Source: Prevotellaceae bacterium
GTDB lineage: Bacteria; Bacteroidota; Bacteroidia; Bacteroidales; Paludibacteraceae
NCBI GenBank assembly: GCA_031271005.1
Contig: JAISWT010000038.1
Span: 1 to 42,264 of the forward strand
Direction of reading: 5' to 3'
Length of the DNA: 42,264 nucleotides
Shown: one piece after another, positions 13,160 through 15,577 of the stretch
Position numbering within the stretch: position 1 is the first letter of the stretch
How the letters are laid out: each line of letters begins with the position of its first letter
The notes under the pieces: model-generated
What the model saw: the letters and a program-made list of their open reading frames with translations, nothing else
Told to the model about the DNA's origin: nothing
Database searches by the model: none
Translations under genes and position numbers: made by a program

Positions 13160-14047
13160 ATGCTAAATAAAGTAAAGCCATATATGATGCCTGTGTCGAT
13201 GCTTGCGGGCAGCATTTTTTACGGACAATTTTCACGCCTGACTGTTCTTATGCCTTACATGATATTCACGATGCTGTTTATCACGTTCAGCAGGTTGACA
13301 TTCCGAAAAATCCGCTTTTCGGGCAAACACTTGTGCATGCTGTTTATTCAAATAGTTATTAGCATATTTCTGTATTTTATTATCGCTCCGTTCAACAATA
13401 TTATTGCTCAGGGCGCAATGATTTGCATTTTGATGCCTACGGCGTCTTCCGCGCCGATTATTACAGGAATGTTGGGCGGCAATGTGGCAAGCGTCTCGGC
13501 ATACGCTTTGGTGTGCAATCTGGGCGTGGCATTGGTTGCGCCGATGCTGTTTTCGTGCATTGGGCAACATTCAGAAGCGCCGTTTGTGGAATCTTTTATA
13601 TACATATTGTCGAGAATGGCGACTCTGATGGTGTTGCCGTTTGTGGTTGCGCAAATTGTGCGTAAATTTTTGCCGAAAGTGAATCAAAAGATTCTAACCG
13701 TACCAAATATTTCGTTCTTTATATGGACTTTGGCGCTTGCGGTGGCAACCGCTAAAACAGTCGATATTGTTGTGCAACAGACAGGAAACTACGCTGTGGA
13801 AACCGTTATCGCACTGGTATCACTGCCTATCTGCCTGTGTCAGTTCCTCGCAGGACGGCGAATTGGCAAAGTATTTGACGATAAAATTGCCTGCGGGCAA
13901 AGTTTGGGGCAAAAGAACACAATTTTGGGTATCTGGATGTGCCAAACATATCTTAACCCTCTTGCTGCAATAGGTCCCGGCGCGTATATCCTGTGGCAAA
14001 ATATTGTCAATTCGTTTCAGGTGTGGAGAAACAGGAAGAATCTGTGA
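13160..14047 (+). CDS. Bile acid:sodium symporter (SBF/BART) family transporter
   Basis: The 295-residue protein is almost wholly hydrophobic with about nine or ten membrane spans. The central ICILMPTASSAPIITGMLGGNVASVSAYALVCNLGVALVAPML matches the SBF family core (the P-T-A-x(2)-A-P and G-G-N region). Members move sodium with bile acids, pantothenate, small organic anions or other solutes; the substrate cannot be told here. It starts straight after a repeat array with no consensus promoter seen, and ends before a GC-rich terminator. Confidence 0.85.
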   Translation: MLNKVKPYMMPVSMLAGSIFYGQFSRLTVLMPYMIFTMLFITFSRLTFRKIRFSGKHLCMLFIQIVISIFLYFIIAPFNNIIAQGAMICILMPTASSAPIITGMLGGNVASVSAYALVCNLGVALVAPMLFSCIGQHSEAPFVESFIYILSRMATLMVLPFVVAQIVRKFLPKVNQKILTVPNISFFIWTLALAVATAKTVDIVVQQTGNYAVETVIALVSLPICLCQFLAGRRIGKVFDDKIACGQSLGQKNTILGIWMCQTYLNPLAAIGPGAYILWQNIVNSFQVWRNRKNL

Positions 14048-14130: not shown

Positions 14131-14155
14131 CTCCCGCCAAAGCGGGAGTTTTTTT
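14131..14155 (+). terminator. Intrinsic terminator after the transporter gene (dispersed repeat copy)
   Basis: CTCCCGC-CAAA-GCGGGAG (14131-14148) followed by seven T. The same hairpin core recurs at about 15771-15788, 15990-16006, 40744-40757 and 42129-42143, so a dispersed repeat has become the terminator here. Confidence 0.75.
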
Positions 14156-14212
14156 GTAAAAAATCTCTGTGTCTCTCTGCGATTTCTCCGTGTCGCTCTG
14201 TGAAATAAAAAG
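14131..14212. repeat. Dispersed repeat, copy 1
   Basis: CCCGCCAAAGCGGGAG, a T run, then a C/T-rich phrase (ATCTCTGTGTCTCTCTGC...TCTGTGAAAT). A diverged copy in the same orientation lies at 15988-16071. Confidence 0.7.
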
Positions 14213-14306: not shown

Positions 14307-14337
14307 TTTGCAGTTAAAAAACAAAGTATTAAATTTG
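14307..14337 (+). promoter_or_regulatory. Consensus promoter for a candidate structured RNA or the 14804 gene
   Basis: TTTG (14307-14310), 19-bp spacer, TAAATTTG (14330-14337). The nearest plausible start codon is 466 bp away, so the first product is a long leader or an independent RNA. Confidence 0.6.
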
Positions 14338-14342
14338 CATCG

Positions 14343-14634
14343 CTAATATGCTTATAAACAGGCAGATATAGTAAAAATGTTTATCAATTTATTTTATATT
14401 TTTTACAAATAAATAATTGATAAAAAGTGATGCGTAAGCGAACGCAAAAATAGATGGTTCTAACGATTTACAAGTATTCTTGACAATCATTTTCCACAAA
14501 ATACTCGTTTTTACGAGTTCTCGAATCAAGAATAAGTTCGTGAAGCGTCGTGTTATGCGGCGTGGGACGGCTTGTTGGATTCGATAGGCGTGGAAACCTG
14601 ATTGTCAGACGAGTTGGTTTCCACGCTAATTTTG
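14343..14634 (+). ncRNA. Candidate structured RNA with alternative folds
   Basis: From the predicted start, stems in order: TTTATCAATT/AATTGATAAA (14380-14389/14415-14424); TGCGT/ACGCA (14431-14435/14442-14446); an outer stem TGACAATCA-T-TTTCCAC (14481-14497) with GTGGAAA-CC-TGATTGTCA (14590-14607); inside it ACTCG/CGAGT (14503-14507/14514-14518), TCGAATC/GATTCGA (14521-14527/14578-14584) and AGCGTC/GACGGCT (14544-14549/14566-14572, one bulge). A competing perfect 11-bp hairpin GCGTGGAAACC/GGTTTCCACGC (14588-14598/14616-14626) uses the same strand as the outer stem. I recognise no known RNA family: it lacks RNase P, tmRNA and SRP signatures. The size and stem-bubble shape leave 6S RNA possible. 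A minus-strand 61-codon ORF overlaps it and is probably spurious. Confidence 0.45.
14627..14634 (+). promoter_or_regulatory. Possible -7 element upstream of the 14804 gene
   Basis: TAATTTTG directly follows the 11-bp inverted repeat 14588-14626. If used, the inverted repeat would occupy the -33 to -11 spacer like an operator. No TTTG lies at the correct distance. Confidence 0.3.
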
Positions 14635-14652
14635 TGTGCAAAACTGTGAACA

Positions 14653-14759
14653 ATTAGCAGATAGCAATTAGCAATTAGCAATTAGCAATTAGCAGATAGC
14701 AGATAGCAGATAGTAATTTTAAATTCTCAATTCTCAATTCTCAATTCTCAATTTTGAAT
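14653..14759. repeat. Composite array of 7-bp tandem repeats
   Basis: TAGCAGA/TAGCAAT units (about 14653-14713) are followed by TTCTCAA units (about 14724-14750), the reverse complement of the GAGAATT type seen elsewhere. No gene is present. Confidence 0.8.
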
Positions 14760-14803
14760 TATTCACTAAAAAAATAACATTTTAAATTTAAATTTTTACA
14801 AAA

Positions 14804-15577
14804 ATGAAAAAGAGTATTTTAATTTTGGGCTTTTTAGCCCTGACAAGCGGCGGACAATTTCTGTCCGCGCAGGTGGGTATCAACACCGAAAATCCCACAA
14901 ACACGCTCCACATTGTGGGCGATACGGCAACAATTCACGGGCAGGCATTCAGGCTGGTGGACGGCAACGAAGGTGCGGGGAAGTTTCTGGCTTCGGATGC
15001 CAACGGCGTAGGAACGTGGCAGTACTTTTACGGACCAACCCCGCGCCTGATGACAAACCTTAACCAAGATTTGTCAGCGGCGCTTACATCACCCACAAGA
15101 AGAACATCGGTAAAATGGTGGCCGTCAGCCTTGGACAGGTCGGGCAACGACCCCGCCAAAGACATTGTTTTCTCTGCCGACAGCGTTTGGTTTTCTGTCC
15201 CCGTGCGAGGTATTTACAGCATAACTGCCGGCGTAACTCTTGCTAACACAGACATGCCTACAACCGGCGCATTTTCAACTGATGATAGGCGATATGATAC
15301 TGATACAGGCACTGAGTTGAACAATTCTTATGTAGGTCTCAGAATTTTTGTTAATGGAATATCTATCACCGGTACCTTTGGACCGCCGCCACGCATGACG
15401 CCATATTCGTTCCCACCCGCCTCGGTTATGGTGTTGCTGGAACCGACCGACATTGTTTATCTATCAGTGGAATACCAGCCTTCTCAATATAATCTTTATC
15501 CTACTGCTCTTAGAACATTCAACATAACGGGAGATAATTTTTTGAGTGTTAATTATCTGCGCCCACCTCAACCGTAA
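14804..15577 (+). CDS. Secreted surface protein with a possible C1q/TNF-like beta-sandwich
   Basis: The 257-residue protein has a signal peptide (about 1-22, ending FLSAQ). The mature start VGINTENPTNTLHIVG and the phrase FRLVDGNEGAGKFLASDANGVGTW are common in Bacteroidetes surface and adhesin-like proteins. The rest (about 120-257: RGIYSITAGVTL, YVGLRIFVNGISI, PASVMVLLEPTDIVYLSVEY, NFLSVNYL) has the strand spacing of C1q/TNF-like jelly rolls; this fold is inference. No T9SS C-terminal domain is evident. It is flanked by repeats and ended by a hairpin terminator. Function unknown. Confidence 0.7.
   Translation: MKKSILILGFLALTSGGQFLSAQVGINTENPTNTLHIVGDTATIHGQAFRLVDGNEGAGKFLASDANGVGTWQYFYGPTPRLMTNLNQDLSAALTSPTRRTSVKWWPSALDRSGNDPAKDIVFSADSVWFSVPVRGIYSITAGVTLANTDMPTTGAFSTDDRRYDTDTGTELNNSYVGLRIFVNGISITGTFGPPPRMTPYSFPPASVMVLLEPTDIVYLSVEYQPSQYNLYPTALRTFNITGDNFLSVNYLRPPQP

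Follow-up and report, generated by a model that had tools for sequence, protein, structure and literature searches.

A structured RNA encoded upstream of the gene for an exported protein in the window (the whole 42,264-nucleotide stretch of Prevotellaceae DNA that was analysed) is probably a cis-acting 5' leader and transcription attenuator of a family that spans the Bacteroidota. The copies share one pseudoknotted architecture, composed of helices P1–P4, P6 and a hairpin around the 3' strand of P3 (P3b). On comparison of the sequences, this is a real, conserved and widespread family of cis-regulatory RNAs that appears so far to have escaped cataloguing. It likely works like a terminator-type riboswitch or attenuator.

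Architecture and covariation of the RNA

The first-pass annotation of this DNA had described a consensus promoter at 14307-14337, followed by ordered stems. The promoter is an exact match to the Bacteroidota form TTTG-N19-TAnnTTTG, and the stems were borne out by folding. The energy of 14470-14640 was -65.4 kcal/mol against a mean of -42.3 kcal/mol (sd 4.1) for 200 shuffles (z = -5.7), none of which was equally stable. A long stem, 14481-14497/14590-14607, is likewise present as it had been described, while helices P1, P4 and P6 and the alternative helix P8 had been overlooked. The core alone spans roughly 160 nt. Its strands follow one another 5' to 3' in the order P1a, P2a, P3a, P5 hairpin, P4a, P1b, P6 hairpin, P4b, GG, P3b, CC, P2b, linker, terminator arm and U tract (Table 1). 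P1 is a pseudoknot that crosses P2, P3 and P4, and a second knot is formed by P3b, which pairs with P3a from within the loop of the small hairpin P3'.

Table 1. Features of the locus in window coordinates.
Feature	Position	Strand	Remarks
Bacteroidota promoter TTTG-N19-TAAATTTG	14307-14337	+	TTTG 14307-14310, 19 nt, TAAATTTG 14330-14337
5' leader	14340-14475	+	conserved among own-genome copies, 86-95% identity even where core diverged
Leader small hairpin	14349-14364	+	
Leader AU-rich hairpin	about 14379-14424	+	
Leader hairpin TGCGT-AAGCGA-ACGCA	14431-14446	+	
P1 5' strand ATTCTTG	14476-14482	+	partner 14527-14533; 100% of cells paired (19 sequences), G-U pairs and compensatory changes included
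P2 5' strand	14483-14489	+	partner 14599-14605; covaries
P3 5' strand TTCCAC	14492-14497	+	partner 14590-14595; covaries
P5 hairpin, variable	14503-14518	+	from folding
P4 5' strand TCGAATC	14521-14527	+	partner 14578-14584; self-versus-cross pairing in 96 sequences
P1 3' strand CAAGAAT	14527-14533	+	P1 pairing in 19-sequence alignment
P6 hairpin	14534-14573	+	outer 14534-14538/14569-14573, inner 14545-14551/14557-14563; covariation alignments
P4 3' strand GATTCGA	14578-14584	+	covaries with P4 5' strand
P3' hairpin	14587-14598	+	GG 14587-14588 with CC 14597-14598; P3b GTGGAA 14590-14595 in loop
P2 3' strand TGATTGT	14599-14605	+	covaries with P2 5' strand
P8, alternative long terminator helix	14560-14626	+	14560-14565 with 14621-14626, 14571-14575 with 14609-14613; U-rich 14627-14633 follows
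Local terminator-like hairpin	14588-14626	+	14588-14598/14616-14626; type A copies only; 91% of cells pair, zero covariation
Exported MKKSILILGF..QVGINT family protein	14804-15577	+	257 aa

Covariation was evaluated in an alignment of 19 sequences of the window's type (type A), in which 91.6% of cells pair in the structure including P1. The covariation score was 0.275 compared to 0.120 upon shuffling, and none of 500 shuffles scored as high. For 75 rows found with R2, a covariance model built from the sister type C, the score was 0.701 against 0.191 for shuffled alignments (0 of 500 as high), with all slid controls at or below 0.13; this score is inflated as the alignment was fitted to the model, and the effect size agrees with an independent self-versus-cross test. 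In 96 distinct type A-like sequences, 6.86 of the 7 Watson-Crick pairs of P4 formed with the copy's own partner strand and 4.35 with those of other copies; the corresponding values for P2 were 5.62 of 6 and 3.73. P3 changes from TTCCAC/GTGGAA to TACCAC/GTGGTA within type A and takes many sequences in type C. Similarly, AGG/CCT of P3' is replaced in relatives by AGGG/CCCT and GGTA/TACC, and self pairing exceeded cross pairing in 93 of the 96. The search for homologous structured copies with covarying pairs, whose absence would have counted against the first-pass annotation, was strongly positive. The alignments point to a conserved structured domain with covariation, as is found in riboswitches.

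Distribution of the family

Seven further near-complete copies of the locus DNA were found in its own genome. In others there, 5' leader and 3' end are preserved around a core that has diverged in sequence yet retains the same helices, and several searches combined gave approximately 21 copies in this genome. Samples of Bacteroidales and of the wider Bacteroidota were then scanned with R2 and with R1, a model built from the 19 type A cores. R1 matched 40 of 393 Bacteroidales genomes (28 of 207 genera). R2 matched 117 of 295 (85 of 184 genera) and, across the phylum, 59 of 396 genomes (30 of 172 genera). Since R2 also recovers divergent type B copies of the window's genome (L016, L018, L019, L023 and L026), types A, B and C were taken to be one family.

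The number of copies per genome reached 31, followed by 21, 19 and 17. Among the hosts were uncultured Bacteroidales of termite gut, rumen and horse, the human-gut species Parabacteroides distasonis and Phocaeicola massiliensis, and Rhizosphaericola mali, where the RNA lies on a plasmid; the family is found in gut, rumen, termite and soil bacteria of the Bacteroidota. Three named plasmid records matched in total, two of them probably chromosomal pieces. The type A pattern was absent from the viral contigs searched and phage records gave no matches.

Position relative to genes

In 109 of 114 loci the first downstream ORF was co-directional with the RNA, the median distance from the RNA end being 54 nt. 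The same orientation was found for 68 of 71 loci of the R2 set, which partly overlaps the 114. The RNA often ends 20-60 nt before the start codon; in the window's own genome and among class-level matches the gene often starts 100-300 nt away. Upstream neighbours were co-directional in only 67 of 102 cases (67 versus 35). Of 110 loci, 59 had a Bacteroidota promoter in the 230 nt before P1, where 7.6 were expected from shuffles, but only 5 of 100 had one between RNA and start codon. As the neighbouring gene is co-directional and the promoter stands before the RNA and rarely after it, the RNA is read as a leader rather than a free-standing RNA. Judged by this placement, it would lie in the 5' leader of the gene that it controls, as riboswitches do. 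A riboswitch or attenuator for the gene at 14804 had been suggested from the outset. Of this suggestion, a structured leader or attenuator is best supported by the nearby co-directional gene and the preceding promoter, but the exact switch that had been drawn held only in part.

Two repeats flank the RNA in the window. At 14134-14156, the inverted repeat CTCCCGCCAAAGCGGGAG with the T tract behind it is likely the terminator of the upstream gene for an SBF-like transporter (13160-14047); the repeat also precedes several other copies of the RNA element. Tandem AATTAGC, GATAGCA and CTCAATT repeats occupy 14655-14760, between RNA and gene, and are matched at more than 40 other places in the same genome.

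The protein encoded at 14804-15577 had no Pfam match. It belongs to a multigene family with a conserved N-terminus and an otherwise divergent sequence; of its 22 N-terminal matches in the window's genome, 15 lie behind the RNA. Small XRE regulators also lie behind the RNA in this genome (C55 and C87, probably also C134 and C147), and XRE/Cro-type regulators with an HTH_26 domain accounted for 11 of 103 downstream products. Small XRE regulators beginning HIG.LI carry the leader at eleven loci in rumen Bacteroidales and the window's genome, and are the most recurrent gene association among type A and own-genome loci. ECF sigma factors followed in 4 of 103, and SusC-type TonB receptors, two-component proteins, TPR, CsgG and TerD proteins and proteases were also observed. 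Of 60 products in the class-level set, 13 had a TonB receptor plug domain with carboxypeptidase-like repeats; response regulators, one FecR protein and one histidine kinase also occurred. Based on a crude signal-peptide score, exported proteins look enriched behind the RNA (49 of 103 and 40 of 60, compared to 109 of 373 background ORFs). The range of genes is too varied to indicate a ligand. In relatives, the genes behind the RNA at seven loci share a near-identical block, (N)AMETGNHFKNGASPKSLMS, which directly adjoins the signal peptide on its N-terminal side and is itself preceded by differing N-terminal letters; this block may be shared leader sequence rather than protein.

Competing pairings at the 3' end

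At its 3' end the RNA has the terminator arm UUCCACGC and then a U-rich tract, both conserved in types A and C; in the window the tract is weak (UAAUUUU). In these two types the arm and the P6 3' strand are complementary, which makes the long helix P8 possible, and such a duplex can in fact form throughout the family. Its mean energy was -22.4 kcal/mol with the copy's own partner and -19.5 kcal/mol with those of others, self pairing being better in 57 of 67. Within type A this covariation is weak (self better in 49 of 96). Equilibrium folding, limited to nested structures without pseudoknots, gave pairing of the arm with the P6 3' strand a mean probability of only 0.03. As P8 is not favoured at equilibrium, the switch would have to be kinetic, factor-dependent or unlike the model proposed here.

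A perfect 11-bp hairpin at 14588-14598/14616-14626, overlapping the long stem and holding TGATTGTCA in its loop, had been reported previously and was found as such. In type A it consists of the terminator arm paired with P3b. Two competitions are present, P6 against P8, with P8 disfavoured at equilibrium, and P3 against the local hairpin. The earlier proposal of a switch between long stem and hairpin is upheld in that the two overlap, but the hairpin does not covary and has no counterpart in types B and C, and it was rejected as the general conserved switch of the family. In the sister types the conserved competition is that of P6 against P8. At the 3' end of several type B copies there is instead a simple local hairpin with a T run.

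From this arrangement we infer the following course of events. Transcription would begin at approximately 14343, as expected from the position of the promoter, and the nascent RNA would adopt a compact pseudoknotted domain (P1, P2, P3/P3', P4 and P6). The last segment, arm and U-rich tract, could then capture the P6 3' strand to form P8 or, alternatively in type A, the P3b strand to form the local hairpin, giving an intrinsic terminator in either case. A signal that stabilises the knotted domain would keep P6 intact and block the terminator, whereby polymerase would read into the gene. Where the domain is not stabilised, the arm would take the P6 strand and transcription would stop before the gene.

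Candidate modes of action

What the putative signal might be divides the possible readings. The knotted domain may itself bind one small molecule, ion or second messenger and thereby set the choice between P6 and P8, which would make the RNA a true riboswitch. We consider this quite conceivable, though short of probable. The domain is compact and strongly covarying, has conserved unpaired letters and is attached to a terminator-like platform, and its many copies per genome before regulators, sigma factors, TonB receptors and exported proteins are what would be expected of a global signal; against this, the gene list allows no ligand to be deduced and the domain looks stable without one. Slightly more tentative is the extension to an undescribed phylum-wide riboswitch class, in which a double-pseudoknot domain would sense a global signal such as a second messenger or central metabolite and control dozens of transcription units per genome, including those of surface proteins, SusC-type receptors, small XRE regulators, ECF sigma factors and sensor kinases. 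The knotted leader might instead be recognised by a Bacteroidota RNA-binding or NusG-like protein, as a protein-responsive attenuator or antitermination signal. A general factor would suit the varied regulon and the very high copy number, as well as a shape that is kept while stem sequences vary freely, but no candidate factor was found, and we regard this as the less likely of the two kinds of signal.

An independent family of trans-acting small RNAs, each ending at its own terminator beside incidental neighbours, is unlikely despite the promoter and terminator-like end. The next gene almost always runs in the direction of the RNA, often a short distance away, and rarely has a promoter of its own. 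Multicopy small RNA families do exist in Bacteroides, such as FopS, but its members are trans-acting RNAs of ~65-70 nt with a single-stranded 5' seed and one terminator hairpin (PMC11697453). The core sequences of the present RNA are too variable for a common seed, and the 6S-like RNA considered in the first-pass annotation was not supported, as the Rfam 6S models match neither the window nor 20 homologous loci. The same annotation had allowed for a small invertible DNA segment or MITE with 16-bp inverted repeat ends. The repeat arms and the multicopy, near-identical leader in the window's genome would fit such an element, but the arms differ among copies through compensatory mutations and G-U pairs and are crossed by further helices, the orientation to genes is constant and the phylum-wide spread lacks uniform ends; this origin is excluded for practical purposes. 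Self-cleavage is very improbable. HDV-like ribozymes have the strand order P1-P2-hairpin-P1-hairpin-P2, and the order P1a-P2a-hairpin-P1b-hairpin-P2b found here resembles their nested pseudoknot, but the additional helix P4 encloses P1b and P6 and the Rfam ribozyme models, HDV-like ones included, gave not even a weak match in the window or the homologues scanned. The cis-acting attenuator leader hence remains the preferred reading.

Comparison with known RNAs

At the curated cut-off, none of the 4227 families of Rfam 15 matched the window or 20 homologous loci, and permissive thresholds, applied to the window and two homologues, gave chance-level matches only. The covariance search and comparative folding proposed with the first-pass annotation returned no Rfam family, while our own models recovered structured homologues. 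Nothing matching was described in the open-access literature (FopS, Flavo-1, transcriptomes of F. psychrophilum and B. thetaiotaomicron and recent structured-RNA surveys). So common and strongly constrained an RNA is therefore uncatalogued as far as Rfam and open-access text were checked. Should it prove to be an attenuator that senses a ligand or depends on a factor, it would add a layer of control to the envelope and regulator genes of a dominant phylum of the gut. The signal can be sought directly, because named isolates (Phocaeicola massiliensis, Parabacteroides distasonis and Rhizosphaericola mali) carry the RNA.

The FopS/GibS small RNAs of Bacteroides resemble the present family as multicopy Bacteroidales RNAs linked to SusC genes (PMC11697453), whereas the RNA described here is knotted, has a core that by itself measures ~160 nt and lies before its gene. 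Membership of the FopS family was rejected on size and structure (PMC11697453). Flavo-1 (RF01705) and other motifs of Weinberg 2010 are also structured and widespread in Bacteroidetes (PMC2864571). Flavo-1 is reported as not consistently oriented to genes, and its Rfam model matched none of the homologues tested. Among transcription-terminating riboswitches with a pseudoknotted aptamer, the preQ1 and fluoride classes are alike in having a leader between promoter and gene, a knotted domain and an overlapping terminator strand. The present RNA would likewise work in the manner of an on/off expression platform. It differs from them in its architecture, has no Rfam riboswitch match or assigned ligand and occurs in up to ~30 copies per genome. 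The c-di-GMP (GEMM) riboswitches occur in many copies per genome before surface-protein and regulator genes. The present family is like them in the style of its regulon, though unrelated by Rfam search and different in fold, and its reach, if the proposed control layer is real, would be comparable to theirs.
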